Below are positions 1 through 6,546 of a stretch of DNA of 64,000 nt, in pieces. The DNA comes from Micromonospora sp. HNM0581 (GTDB lineage Bacteria > Actinomycetota > Actinomycetes > Mycobacteriales > Micromonosporaceae): NCBI RefSeq assembly GCF_012726175.1, contig NZ_JAASAD010000002.1:310001-374000 (forward strand). The letters are read 5' to 3'. Each line of letters begins with the position of its first letter. The stretch's first letter is position 1. The notes under the pieces were generated by a model. That model had not been told where the DNA came from and did not search any database. It was given only the letters and a program-made list of their open reading frames with translations. Both the position numbers and the translations under genes were made by a program.

Positions 1-582
1 CGGCAGCCGGTCCAGTAGCGCCAGCGGGTCGGTGCCCCGGTTACGGGCGTTGGCGTAGACGTTCGCGACGTCGAGTAGCAGCAACGCCGAGGTACGTTCC
101 AGGATTTCGGTGAGGAACGCCGCCTCGTCGAGGTCGTCGTCCGGCCAGTCGAACAGGGCGGCGATCGGCTCCAGCGCTATCGGCACCGGCAGGTCGGCCT
201 GGGCGCGGGAGATGTTGGCGCAGACCGCGTCGATCGCCTCGTGGGTGCGCGGCAGTGGCAACAGGTGACCCGCCTCCAGACCGCCGGCCCGGACGAAGGC
301 GATGTGCTCGCTGACCAGAGGAGCCGCGAGCAGCTGCGCAACCGCTGCGAGGTGAGCCACGCGGTCCGGGTCGACCGGTTCTGCGCTGCCGAGGGAGAGG
401 CGCACGCCGTGGGGTACGACCGCGACGCCTCGGTCGCGCAACTCGACCAGCTCGTGCGGGGCTGGTCCGGCGGTCGGCACCGACTCGGCGATCACCTCGA
501 CGAAGCGCAGGCCGGGCAGCCCGGCCACGAACCCGGAGATCTCCGGGCGCCAGCCGATCCCTACACCGTGCGGGGTGCTCAT
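1..582 (-). CDS. DUF692 family multinuclear iron oxidative enzyme (MNIO), C-terminus cut by window edge
   Basis: 194 residues from ATG 582 are visible; the gene continues past base 1. I translated it directly: it opens MSTPHGVGIGWRPEI and carries the TIM-barrel family signatures VVPHGVRLSLGS (about 60-71), PLVSEHIAF (about 94-102), the IALEPIAALFDWP stretch and LLLLDVANVYANA, with the His, Glu and Asp residues expected to bind iron. Known members of this family (MbnB, TglH, BufB) oxidise or rearrange cysteines in peptide substrates. The start overlaps the stop of the upstream TIGR04222 gene by ATGA, so the two are translationally coupled. The substrate is probably that neighbour's Gly/Cys tail; this is inference. 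Family call is firm, reaction unknown. Confidence 0.9.
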   Translation of the reverse strand, partial: MSTPHGVGIGWRPEISGFVAGLPGLRFVEVIAESVPTAGPAPHELVELRDRGVAVVPHGVRLSLGSAEPVDPDRVAHLAAVAQLLAAPLVSEHIAFVRAGGLEAGHLLPLPRTHEAIDAVCANISRAQADLPVPIALEPIAALFDWPDDDLDEAAFLTEILERTSALLLLDVANVYANARNRGTDPLALLDRLP

Positions 583-1487
583 CCGCCGCATCCGCCGCCG
601 CAGCCTCCTCCTCCGCCACAGCTGGTGTCGCCGGCTCCTGACGTGCTGCCGCCACCGCATCCGCCGGTGGAACTCGCGCCGCCGGCCGCTGCTTGGCGTT
701 GGATCTCGGCCTGCTGGGCGAAGGTCGGATCAAGTGCCCAGAGTGACGCGGGTCCGTAGAGGGCCACCCCCATGGCCGCGCCCGCCGCGCCGTAGGTGGC
801 GTACGCCGGTTTCGAGGCGGGTGCCAGGTGCCGGTTGCGCTGGCGGAGAGTCCGGAGCGCGGCATCGGCTGCCCGGGTACGGCGGGGTACCCGCAGGAGC
901 AGCACCGTGGTCAGCACGCCGAGTGTGAGGACGGTGAGCACCAGATACCAGACCGGGCGGTTGTTGGCGAGCCCGCCGACGATCCGGGCGATCCCGATGG
1001 CCAGCAGCGCGGCCAGCAGCAGTGGTGCGCGGCGCAACGACGCCCGTCGGTCCGGCCCGATCGTGAGACCGCGTTGGTCGAGCCCGTCGCGCAGCTCGGT
1101 GAGGGCGCGCTGGACCCATTCGGTGCGCCGCACGTCCCGGGCGAGGGTGCGCTGCGCCGCGGAGTAGTGGACGGCCCGGTCGAGTGGGGTGGCGTCAGCC
1201 GGCAGTGGACCGTCGACGGTCAGCCGGTGGTCCGGGTCGACACCGAGCGCGCCCTGGCTTCGCAGGGTGCCCAGCGAGGTGCAGACGGCAAGGTCGTCGC
1301 CGCCGTTGAGGTAGGCCACCTGCTGTGCGCCGAGTTGGTCGGCCGGTGCAGCGGTCCGGCCGTTCAGCAGCGTCCGGCGGCGGACCAGGACGATGGCGAC
1401 GGCGACCACCACAGCCGCCAGGTAGAGCGTGATGAAGGTGGGACCGGGAACTCCCCAGGTGTCGTAGTCGGCAGCGAAACCCGTCAT
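579..1487 (-). CDS. TIGR04222-type membrane protein with Gly/Cys-rich C-terminal tail
   Basis: 302 aa. A transmembrane helix lies at about 17-37, followed by the family signature LGAQQVAYLNGGDDLAV (about 52-68). Further hydrophobic segments are at about 154-172, 178-199 and 230-251. From about residue 266 the chain becomes low-complexity Gly/Ser with four cysteines (277, 290, 296, 300) and ends in Gly-Gly. TIGR04222 proteins are known for such uncomplex Gly/Cys tails, but their function is unknown. The stop codon overlaps the start of the DUF692 enzyme by four bases. I infer that the tail is the target of that enzyme and that this protein presents it at the membrane. Confidence 0.85.
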   Translation of the reverse strand: MTGFAADYDTWGVPGPTFITLYLAAVVVAVAIVLVRRRTLLNGRTAAPADQLGAQQVAYLNGGDDLAVCTSLGTLRSQGALGVDPDHRLTVDGPLPADATPLDRAVHYSAAQRTLARDVRRTEWVQRALTELRDGLDQRGLTIGPDRRASLRRAPLLLAALLAIGIARIVGGLANNRPVWYLVLTVLTLGVLTTVLLLRVPRRTRAADAALRTLRQRNRHLAPASKPAYATYGAAGAAMGVALYGPASLWALDPTFAQQAEIQRQAAAGGASSTGGCGGGSTSGAGDTSCGGGGGCGGGCGG

Positions 1488-1590
1488 GGCCTGCTCCTGT
1501 CACGGGAGGGAACGCGGCTTCATTGTCCAGCGGCGATGCCAGCCCCAGGCCGCCCAAACAGTTGAGTCATCTTCTCGTCAGCTGTCGGGG

Positions 1591-4441: not shown

Positions 4442-5152
4442 GTCCCTGAGCCTGGCACAGCGGTACCGGCCGCGGCCCGCGTTCGCGTCGGCGGCGTCCC
4501 CCGGAAGACCCGGCGCAGCGAACCGGTGGGCCCGGCATGACGTAGATCACCCGGATGGCGACGGGCGAGCCGGGGTGCCCTAGGCCGACCAGGGCATGAT
4601 CACCGGCGCTATCACCGGCGCTTGAGTTGCTGCGGTGACGTTGTTAGGTTGCGCCGGTGTCGGCGTGCGGGGTGACGTACTCCCGACTGACCGATAAACC
4701 AGTTCAGGGCCAGGGACGGTGTAATGGGTTCCCGCAGTAGGGATCTGCGTGCCAAGGTAGTGGCCCGATTGGCCCCGCCGGTGGCACTCTCGACGGTTAC
4801 CGCCCGGAGCACCGACCGCGATGGAGCCGGCGTCGATGCAGGTCAAGCCTGCCGATCCGGATACGCCAGGTGAGCCCGGCACCGCGATGGCAGGCCGATC
4901 CCGAGACTGTGGACGAGGGCGACGACCTGATCCGCGACCCGAACAGGTTCGACACACGATGAGTTCGTACCAGACCGGCACCCGGCGGGGAGACTCCGAC
5001 GACACACGGCTGCCCGGTGCTGGTGACAGGCCCGGGCCCGACGACGCCGACGAGCAGGTGCCCTGACCGGGGTGCGGCGGCCCGGTGAACCGGGGGATGA
5101 CGGTCAGGCCCAAGTGAGCCGGCGACGAGCCGGAGGAGAAGAGGACGACGAA
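4442..5152. other. Gap upstream of cvnB; possible relic of the cvnA C-terminus
   Basis: No convincing gene is seen. A plus-strand frame ending in TGA at 5064-5066 closes with a peptide containing MSSYQTGTRRGDSDD. This loosely resembles the Ser-x-Tyr/Phe-Gln-x-Gly-x-Arg tails of conservon sensor kinases, but the frame meets a stop at 4758-4760 and no kinase catalytic motifs are present upstream. A 12-base direct repeat (ATCACCGGCGCT) lies at 4599-4610 and 4611-4622. The conservon promoter is presumably within this stretch. Confidence 0.4.
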
Positions 5153-5575
5153 GTGGCGCAGAAGACGGCTTCGAGTGCCGACCTGACGTGGTTGCTGGAT
5201 GATCTGATCGGTCGGGTCAAGCAGGCCGAGCACGCGGTCGCGCTGTCCGCCGACGGTTTGCTGATGGCATCCTCGCAGGGGCTCGGCCGCGACGACGGCG
5301 AGCATCTGGCGGCGATGGCGGCCGGCATCCAGAGTCTGGCCCGTGGTGCTGGCAAGCGATTCGGTGGCGGGCAGGTGCAGCAGACGATCATCGAGATGCA
5401 GTCGTCCTTCCTCTTCGTCACCGCCGCTGGCCGCAACGCCTGCCTGGCGGTACTGGCCAGCGCAGGCGCCGACGTCGGTCTGATCGCGTACGAGATGGCC
5501 ATGCTCGTCACGCGGGTCGGCAGATACGTCGTGTCGCCGTCACGGTCAGCCGAACAGACCGGCGGGGAGCAGTAA
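5153..5575 (+). CDS. cvnB: Conservon roadblock/LC7 protein (CvnB type)
   Basis: 140 aa from GTG 5153, preceded by the purine-rich ribosome site GGAGGAGAAGAGG. It is a single roadblock/LC7 domain: DLTWLLDDLIGRV at about 9-21, LSADGLLMASSQGL at about 30-43, and a C-terminal beta strand and helix including GLIAYEMAMLVTRVG. In conservons this protein works with the CvnD GTPase, the DUF742 protein CvnC and the CvnA sensor kinase as a G-protein-like membrane signalling complex. cvnC follows after 4 bases. No cvnA is present upstream. Confidence 0.9.
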   Translation: MAQKTASSADLTWLLDDLIGRVKQAEHAVALSADGLLMASSQGLGRDDGEHLAAMAAGIQSLARGAGKRFGGGQVQQTIIEMQSSFLFVTAAGRNACLAVLASAGADVGLIAYEMAMLVTRVGRYVVSPSRSAEQTGGEQ

Positions 5576-5579
5576 CCGG

Positions 5580-5966
5580 ATGGCGGCGCAGGGAGAATCC
5601 GCGGACCACCAGTGGATGGACGACCACGCTGGCCCGGTCGTTCGCCCGTACGCGGTGACCGGCGGCCGGGGCCGCCCGGTCACCGGTACCTTCGACCTGA
5701 TCTCCCTGGTGACCGCCACCCGCGATGACGTCCCTCCGAAGGCAGGCCTGGGCCCGGAGCACCTGACGATCGTCGGTCTGTGCCAGCGCGTGCAGTCCGT
5801 CGCCGAGATCGCGGCGCACCTGGACCTGCCGGTAGGCGCCGTGCGGGTCCTGCTCGGTGACCTGGTCGCGCGCGACCTGGTGCAGATCCGCGAACCACAC
5901 ATCACCCTCGGACCACCCGAACACAGCATCTTCGAGGCGGTAATCAATGGACTACGGGCACTCTGA
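5580..5966 (+). CDS. cvnC: Conservon DUF742 protein (CvnC type)
   Basis: 128 aa from ATG 5580. It contains the DUF742 hallmarks VRPYAVTGGRGRP (about 21-33), a winged-helix-like centre (EIAAHLDLPVGAVRVLLGDL, about 78-97) and LVQIREPHITLGPPEH near the end. The terminal stretch IFEAVINGLRAL overlaps the next gene by 20 bases. DUF742 proteins are the third component of conservons. It probably interacts with CvnB and CvnD; there is no enzyme motif. Confidence 0.9.
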   Translation: MAAQGESADHQWMDDHAGPVVRPYAVTGGRGRPVTGTFDLISLVTATRDDVPPKAGLGPEHLTIVGLCQRVQSVAEIAAHLDLPVGAVRVLLGDLVARDLVQIREPHITLGPPEHSIFEAVINGLRAL

Positions 5967-6546
5967 GCGGCAGGCGGGCGGAGTCGTGCTGCCCACCGCG
6001 ATCAAGATTCTCATCGCTGGCGGGTTCGGGGCAGGCAAGACCACCCTCGTCGGCGCGGTGAGCGAGACGCGTCCCCTGCGGACCGAGGAGGTCCTCACCG
6101 AATCGGGAGTGGGCATCGACGACCTGGAAGGCGTCGAGGCGAAGCGGACGACCACCGTCGCGATGGACTTCGGTCGGATCACCATCAGTGACGACCTGGT
6201 GCTGTACCTGTTCGGCACTCCGGGCCAGGACCGGTTCTGGTTCGTCTGGGACGAGTTGGCACTCGGCGCGATCGGCGCGGTGGTGCTGGCCGACACCCGT
6301 CGATTGGCCGACTGCTTTCCCGCCATCGACTACTTCGAGGGCCGGGGGACACCGTTTCTCGTCGCCGTCAACTGCTTCGAGGGGGCCCGCAGGTACCGGC
6401 TCGACGAGGTGCGGGCGGCACTGAACCTCGACCCGGAGGTGCCGGTACTGCTCTGTGACGCCCGGCAACGGGAGTCGGCCAAGGAGGTGCTCATCATGCT
6501 CGTGGAGCACGCCATCAAGATCCGAAACGCCCGTCACGCCGACTGA
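5947..6546 (+). CDS. cvnD: Conservon GTP-binding protein (CvnD type)
   Basis: 199 aa from ATG 5947, overlapping cvnC. It is a Ras-like small GTPase of the MglA/CvnD group: P-loop AGGFGAGKTTLVGAVSE (about 23-39), switch I region with TTTVAMDFG, the G3-equivalent LYLFGTPGQDRFW (about 88-100), and the base-specificity segment VAVNCFEG, in which the usual NKxD is replaced. It acts as the switch of the CvnB/C/D module. A strong hairpin follows and separates it from convergent acn. Confidence 0.92.
   Translation: MDYGHSERQAGGVVLPTAIKILIAGGFGAGKTTLVGAVSETRPLRTEEVLTESGVGIDDLEGVEAKRTTTVAMDFGRITISDDLVLYLFGTPGQDRFWFVWDELALGAIGAVVLADTRRLADCFPAIDYFEGRGTPFLVAVNCFEGARRYRLDEVRAALNLDPEVPVLLCDARQRESAKEVLIMLVEHAIKIRNARHAD

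Follow-up and report, generated by a model that had tools for sequence, protein, structure and literature searches.

What might an MNIO (DUF692) enzyme do when its gene is coupled to that of a membrane protein ending in a cysteine-containing Gly/Ser tail? This question is raised by the first genes of the analyzed stretch of 64,000 nucleotides (the window; G000:C12:310001-374000), for which the adjoining DNA past base 1 was also read. An earlier note on this DNA had described the overlap of the two genes and had proposed that the enzyme modifies the tail, which would give a display of modified cysteines on the membrane.

Gene organization and protein families of the locus

The TIGR04222 gene, the MNIO gene and a third gene follow each other with overlapping stop and start codons (Table 1). 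The overlap between the first two was found as the earlier note had reported it, and the four tail cysteines likewise sit where it had placed them (codons 659-657 for Cys277, 620-618 for Cys290, 602-600 for Cys296 and 590-588 for Cys300). The MNIO gene has 582 of its 819 bases inside the window and 237 past base 1. There, where the earlier note had recommended a search for a partner, a candidate gene is present, its GTG start codon overlapping the MNIO stop as GTGA; it is followed by a gene for a short-chain dehydrogenase. These start-stop overlaps argue for coupled production of the proteins. Before the TIGR04222 gene, the ACAATG part of a conserved upstream element is identical in all aligned regions (28/28; the window and 27 named loci), and the TGGC/ACAATG element is a possible promoter. 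The spacing of its two parts looks unlike that of an ordinary sigma-70 promoter.

Table 1 Features of the locus and the evidence for each
Feature	Position	Strand	Basis and remarks
TIGR04222 membrane protein gene	579..1487	-	302 aa; NCBIfam match, model, hydropathy and charge
Gly/Ser-rich C-terminal tail (residues 266-302)	582..692	-	Codons; presumed MNIO substrate
ATGA overlap of TIGR04222 stop (581-579) and MNIO start (ATG 582-580)	579..582	-	Sequence
MNIO (DUF692, PF05114), first 194 of 272 residues	1..582	-	Pfam
Whole MNIO gene	L002 12583-11765		Crosses window edge; sequence beyond base 1
Candidate partner gene, 173 aa	L002 11768-11247		Wholly outside window; sequence beyond base 1, conservation
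Upstream element TGGC-11 bases-ACAATG	1521..1541	-	Alignment of upstream regions

The assignment of the enzyme is based on a Pfam match of 274.8 bits to PF05114 (cut-off 25) and on profile matches to 3bww, TglH and MbnB. Among NCBIfam models, the bufferin maturase BufB comes closest, with a score of 194 bits that lies under the equivalog cut-off of 310 and thereby outside the bufferin systems as this cut-off delimits them. Nine residues (H53, H88, E133, D166, N169, H197, D210, H212 and E239; A1 numbering) are invariant among 17 MNIO sequences and align with identical residues in 3bww; we take them to be the MNIO metal site. For the related HvfB, N175, D242 and H244 were reported to be essential (PMC13419390), and we infer that these correspond to N169, D210 and H212 of the MNIO enzyme.

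The TIGR04222 protein matches its NCBIfam model over the full profile (positions 1-229) with 158.9 bits (cut-off 43). Transmembrane helices are predicted at about residues 15-36, 154-172, 180-199 and 227-251, with an Arg-rich stretch and a domain (37-153) between the first and the second. The predicted model has a pLDDT of 87.3, falling below 50 for residues 272-302, and no significant match was found among the 15 Foldseek entries listed for this fold; a winged-helix appearance of residues 54-91 is no more than an impression. To orient the protein, the mean number of Lys and Arg was counted in 55 TIGR04222 proteins, giving 0.3 at the N-terminus, 3.3 after the first helix, 3.4 before the second, 0.8 between the second and third, 5.8 between the third and fourth, and 1.0 and then 0.1 past the fourth. 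By the positive-inside rule, this pattern gives a predicted topology with the N-terminus outside, the large domain inside and the tail outside. The fourth helix is the least hydrophobic one (median best 19-residue score 1.51), which makes the last crossing the weakest point of the topology argument. With the tail outside, a cytosolic enzyme would have to act before the tail crosses the membrane. The display of the tail on the membrane, as proposed in the earlier note, is thus consistent with the charge distribution. In the literature searched, no report of a TIGR04222 tail shown to be modified was found.

Tail cysteines and their association with the enzyme

In the alignment of the 55 TIGR04222 proteins, four columns contain at least 30% Cys; all of them lie in the tail (65, 80, 95 and 98%), the last three being those of Cys290, Cys296 and Cys300. 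No column with at least 30% Cys was found in the alignments of MNIO (17 rows) or of the partner (55 rows). Judged from these alignments, no cysteines other than those of the tail are conserved in the three proteins. Their arrangement was analyzed in the last 40 residues of 72 MNIO-linked copies from named loci. Here, Cys accounts for 10.9% of the residues and Ser for 21.9%, followed by Ala (3.3%), Asp (2.7%), Val (0.7%) and Arg (0.6%). These other residues are, like Cys, one base change away from Gly codons, and Ser is the only one of them to exceed Cys. The distance between cysteines is exactly six in 121/252 cases, the residue after a Cys is Gly or Ser in 320/324 cases, and the last Cys stands exactly two residues from the end in 61/72 copies, with CGG as the usual ending. 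The repeat unit of the tail is [GS][GS]CGGG. Composition and spacing indicate that the tail cysteines are more than a product of chance.

Next, we analyzed whether the enzyme and the tail occur together. The family of the window was taken to be Micromonosporaceae, since the nearest named relatives of its MNIO belong to Verrucosispora and Micromonospora. Among 61 genomes of this family, MNIO was found in 37 and TIGR04222 over the cut-off in 38, with the reservation that scoring was limited to 38, 13 or 7 candidate frames per genome, depending on the sample, and a TIGR04222 protein can be missed. All genomes with MNIO encode TIGR04222 (37/37) compared to a single one without (1/24; G021), and neither of the two TIGR04222 copies of the latter has tail cysteines. 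The co-occurrence for which the earlier note had suggested a search therefore holds within the family.

The tail itself was surveyed in 154 TIGR04222 proteins from the family and from class-level samples, counting a Gly/Cys tail where at least two Cys in Gly/Ser context lie within the last 60 residues; this rule had been tightened after the one false positive of a first version (G208, in a MNIO-less genome). Such a tail is present in 59/65 copies upstream of MNIO, in 6/18 copies downstream of MNIO, all in genus g62, in 15/36 copies of MNIO genomes where no MNIO is adjacent in the DNA examined, and in 0/35 copies from genomes without MNIO. Counted per genome, the tail occurs in 65/79 with MNIO and in 0/32 without. 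Of the 35 MNIO-less copies, 12 have at least 40% Gly and Ser over the last 60 residues, and none of the 12 carries Cys in that context (11 copies without G208, whose frame looks wrong). Among MNIO-less genomes, G350, of the same order, and G325, of genus g62, are nearer relatives, and their TIGR04222 copies have no tail cysteines. Among the 65 upstream copies, the six without a tail include five that stand beside a tailed copy; for the remaining one, in G188, no tailed copy was found beside it.

Fisher tests gave p values of 4e-21 for copies and 3e-17 for genomes, both inflated by relatedness. Using independent pairs on a FastTree tree, enzyme and tail were seen to change jointly in roughly 4 to 5 pairs, compared to an average of 0.0 pairs with opposite changes (median p 0.06 to 0.125), a consistent direction in an underpowered comparison. 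As to the composition of the sample, the MNIO-less set comprises every over-cut-off match listed plus G114, which lies just under the cut-off. G090 (contig end, no stop) was left out, G120 was counted as adjacent on account of a MNIO fragment beside it, the counts are without G143:C1:6547592, an over-cut-off copy in a MNIO genome, and of the further MNIO genomes listed only G257, G272, G330 and G401 were taken in. Altogether, the sequence comparisons suggest that tail cysteines go with MNIO, which makes the tail more likely to be what the enzyme modifies.

The exceptions are concentrated in genus g62. Here, tail cysteines are missing in 12/18 MNIO-linked TIGR04222 copies, although both MNIO and partner are retained. 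The genus is probably Streptomyces, as its MNIO-partner protein best matches a Streptomyces plasmid (77% over 77% of the query). In 16 entries with TIGR04222 downstream, the partner is fused behind MNIO in 15 and a separate frame in one. For example, L156, L158 and L164 have the fused protein followed by TIGR04222, which in most copies lacks tail cysteines, and in L309, a named Streptomyces plasmid record, MNIO, a separate overlapping partner frame and a Cys-less TIGR04222 gene stand in succession. Keeping MNIO and partner beside Cys-less copies suggests that this branch of the enzyme may have another target. The interpretation put forward in the earlier note is upheld in part, namely with respect to the coupling of enzyme and TIGR04222 protein, while against it stand the MNIO-linked copies of g62, most of them Cys-less.

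Two further deviations were noted. In L300 (G058), MNIO and partner are intact and a TetR-like frame ends before MNIO, where no TIGR04222 match was found; Gly/Cys-tailed copies occur elsewhere in the same genome (L065, L301). In L296 and L297, from the same family and another MNIO branch, MNIO is immediately preceded by short open frames with Cys codons and has no such partner, so that these loci look like a different system. These short frames are possibly ordinary RiPP precursors.

The candidate partner gene and the genomic neighborhood

A profile of the third gene was searched against the surroundings of 96 MNIO entries. TIGR04222 lies directly upstream of MNIO in 54 of them, 52 with enough downstream DNA to be tested, and a partner relative follows MNIO in 51/52, the exception being G330. 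Split by origin, it was found in 35/35 testable entries of Micromonosporaceae, two of them fused to MNIO, and in 16/17 from elsewhere, with six fusions, all in family f15. The linkers of six inspected fusions comprise 32 to 77 residues. Among 25 entries without TIGR04222 nearby, 12 have no partner (G057 counted twice, with two frames); 11 of these 12 score below 245 bits against the MNIO profile and therefore belong to other MNIO branches. The twelfth, G249, has a close MNIO (385 bits) without TIGR04222 upstream and yielded no partner match.

In the named loci, the partner is present throughout (80/80), and the overlap with MNIO is four bases in 76/80 if the partner is taken to begin at the start codon closest to the end of MNIO. 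These loci are the top 80 among 562 relatives of a profile built from 17 MNIO sequences which, except for one or two, have TIGR04222 as a neighbor, and do not represent an unbiased sample. With enough room upstream, TIGR04222 directly precedes MNIO in 69/71. Of the other two, L275 (Rhodococcus) gave no TIGR04222 match upstream of MNIO. L196 (Verrucosispora sioxanthis) has the TIGR04222 gene, but its reading frame is broken within the Gly/Cys repeats of the tail, and the frame of the partner continues into the next gene, either by sequencing error or in reality.

The partner of the window genome is encoded directly after MNIO and has no DUF2063 match over the cut-off, as expected of PME-type 2 partners. 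Searches of Pfam and NCBIfam gave no match for it up to an E value of 1, its profile gave no meaningful match to solved structures (best E 0.37), and Foldseek returned nothing significant for the model. This AlphaFold model, of the L197 orthologue and not of the window genome's own protein, has a pLDDT of 90.2 and consists of five helices followed by three short strands; the fold expected of PME-type 2 partners is a DUF2063-like helical domain with a truncated RRE. When it was compared with 300 chains, the top two were MbnC of two MbnABC structures, at low Z scores of 4.7 (122 residues, rmsd 5.6) and 3.8 (127 residues, rmsd 6.1), ahead of the next chain at 2.6. In addition, weak DUF2063 matches occur in 2/55 partner members (best E 0.018), and this is the family touched by most members. 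We read the third gene product as a divergent PME-type 2 or MbnC-like partner, on evidence that is weak for the fold and strong for synteny and fusion.

Fusion of enzyme and partner has a parallel in engineered proteins. HvfC is required for the mixed-valent diiron state that accompanies HvfB activity, and product formation by an engineered HvfB-HvfC fusion was markedly higher than with co-expression of the two proteins (PMC13419390); the domain order of this fusion is identical to that of the natural fusions described here. As reported, MovX is a MNIO with a fused RRE domain, and no natural MNIO-partner fusion of the present kind appears in the available sections of five papers on MNIO enzymes (PMC12452194, PMC13419390, PMC12668002, PMC13174530, PMC11002830).

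In Micromonosporaceae, the operon is often preceded by relatives of TetR and HAD genes, the TetR relative lying at most 600 nt upstream in 42/70 named loci with a TIGR04222 match. None of these 42 belongs to Actinomadura, Pseudonocardia or another genus outside the family, where HAD was likewise not found, and the TetR gene was therefore treated as vertical synteny and set aside as regulator of the operon. An ABC transporter gene (PF00664 and PF00005) lies downstream on the opposite strand in the window genome, and its cluster recurs in 39/64 named loci from 10 genera. As this clustering used crude open frames, lumped the two largest clusters and considered only clusters of at least five genera, rarer shared neighbors may have been missed. 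Ten open frames around three loci outside the family matched only an ArsA-type ATPase and NACHT in Pfam, eight of them matching nothing and some probably not being genes. No protease was found by Pfam among these ten crude frames and six neighbors in the window genome. Further into the window (5072-6546), three successive plus-strand frames look like roadblock, DUF742 and small GTPase genes, presumably of the conservon type.

Proposed function and comparison with known systems

Taken together, a substrate-enzyme-partner operon of an already proposed kind is well supported by gene order and conservation, with the TIGR04222 protein as presumed substrate, MNIO as enzyme and the third gene product as partner. 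Our preferred explanation, to which we assign a probability of roughly 60%, is that the three genes form a modification unit in which MNIO and partner oxidize the tail cysteines, so that a modified tail is presented outside and plausibly binds a soft metal. The MNIO, presumably a cytosolic multi-iron oxidase, would work in complex with the partner on the repeated cysteines, most likely turning them into thiooxazole-type or oxazolone-thioamide-type heterocycles. Oxidation might take place before or during insertion of the last membrane segment. The modified tail would then end up outside, tethered by four transmembrane helices, where by analogy it would most plausibly bind copper or another soft metal. 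More tentatively, we suggest that this represents a widespread protein-modification system of actinobacteria, placing sulfur heterocycles on hexapeptide Cys repeats, with the tail as tethered buffer or sensor for soft metals and not as part of a natural-product pathway.

The strongest competing explanation, in our view an unlikely one, is that the tail forms an unmodified metal-binding or disulfide surface, that MNIO has its target elsewhere, and that the genes are linked by a shared stress. MNIO and partner kept in g62 beside mostly Cys-less copies would fit this explanation, and MNIO enzymes can act on residues other than Cys (PMC11002830). However, neither the enzyme, the partner nor the remainder of the TIGR04222 protein offers another conserved Cys, tail cysteines are missing from all 35 copies of MNIO-less genomes, an absence that would not be needed for a free metal-binding tail, and the start-stop overlaps again point to coupled production. 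We consider it less probable still that the protein is a membrane-anchored RiPP precursor, whose tail, once modified, is cleaved to set free a small metallophore. Methanobactin is likewise released, and the repeated modifiable units, the disordered tail and the recurring ABC transporter gene would suit such a pathway, but it would call for a protease, and none was detected among the neighbors scanned, a weak argument given the crude choice of frames.

Mutational drift is clearly disfavored and has, in our estimation, hardly any chance of being correct. It would regard the cysteines as functionless products of GGC or AGC codons turning into TGC in a GC-rich Gly/Ser region, which the low complexity of the tail and the single step between the codons make conceivable. 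Yet, apart from Ser, the other residues reachable in one step are rarer (0.6-3.3% against 10.9% for Cys), the spacing of six and the CGG end recur, and Gly/Ser-rich tails without MNIO have no such cysteines (0/12).

If the tail is modified, MNIO chemistry would extend past small peptides to integral membrane proteins and be commonly found in the cell envelopes of actinobacteria. As far as the literature was searched, this would be the first multi-pass membrane protein shown to be a MNIO substrate. The three-gene unit including the partner provides a ready design for expression, and makes the open prediction of a 2025 survey directly testable.

Among known systems, methanobactin biosynthesis by MbnABC shares the MNIO profile, and MbnC provides the top structural matches of the partner model, at the weak Z scores given above. 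MbnA is a short peptide that is released as a metal chelator, whereas the presumed substrate here is a membrane protein of 302 aa and not the short precursor peptide by which RiPP clusters are recognized. BufABC and HvfABC are similar in that MNIO and partner act on cysteines. Their precursors have Sec signal peptides and their partner carries DUF2063 (PMC12452194), in contrast to the four-helix membrane protein and the partner without any Pfam family in the window genome. Among published cases, MerC-bufferin chimaeras with five predicted transmembrane segments come closest to a membrane-bound substrate (PMC12452194).

The pairing of TIGR04222 and MNIO is not new, and is already in print as a prediction by Antoine et al. 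2025 (PMC12452194). According to the sections of that survey available to us, more than 1,000 Cys proteins without signal peptide are encoded in front of MNIO, 40% of which are TIGR04222 proteins; subsets of these were proposed as MNIO substrates, and in a Micromonospora example the C-terminal Cys-rich region was predicted outside. It also states that one third of TIGR04222 genomes have no MNIO and that C-proximal cysteines are missing in more than a quarter of the proteins; no test of whether the cysteines depend on MNIO was found in these sections. Both analyses agree in placing the tail outside, but the survey describes large periplasmic domains, whereas the charge topology puts the large domain in the cytosol. 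PME-type 2 partners, including one from Micromonospora matsumotoense, were reported there for at least 10% of TIGR04222 clusters, with many seemingly lacking one and clusters without MNIO included, compared to 51/52 testable MNIO loci with TIGR04222 directly upstream in the present analysis; the two denominators are not the same. What is new here is the near-constant partner, its fusion to MNIO, the tail cysteines following MNIO and the charge-based topology.
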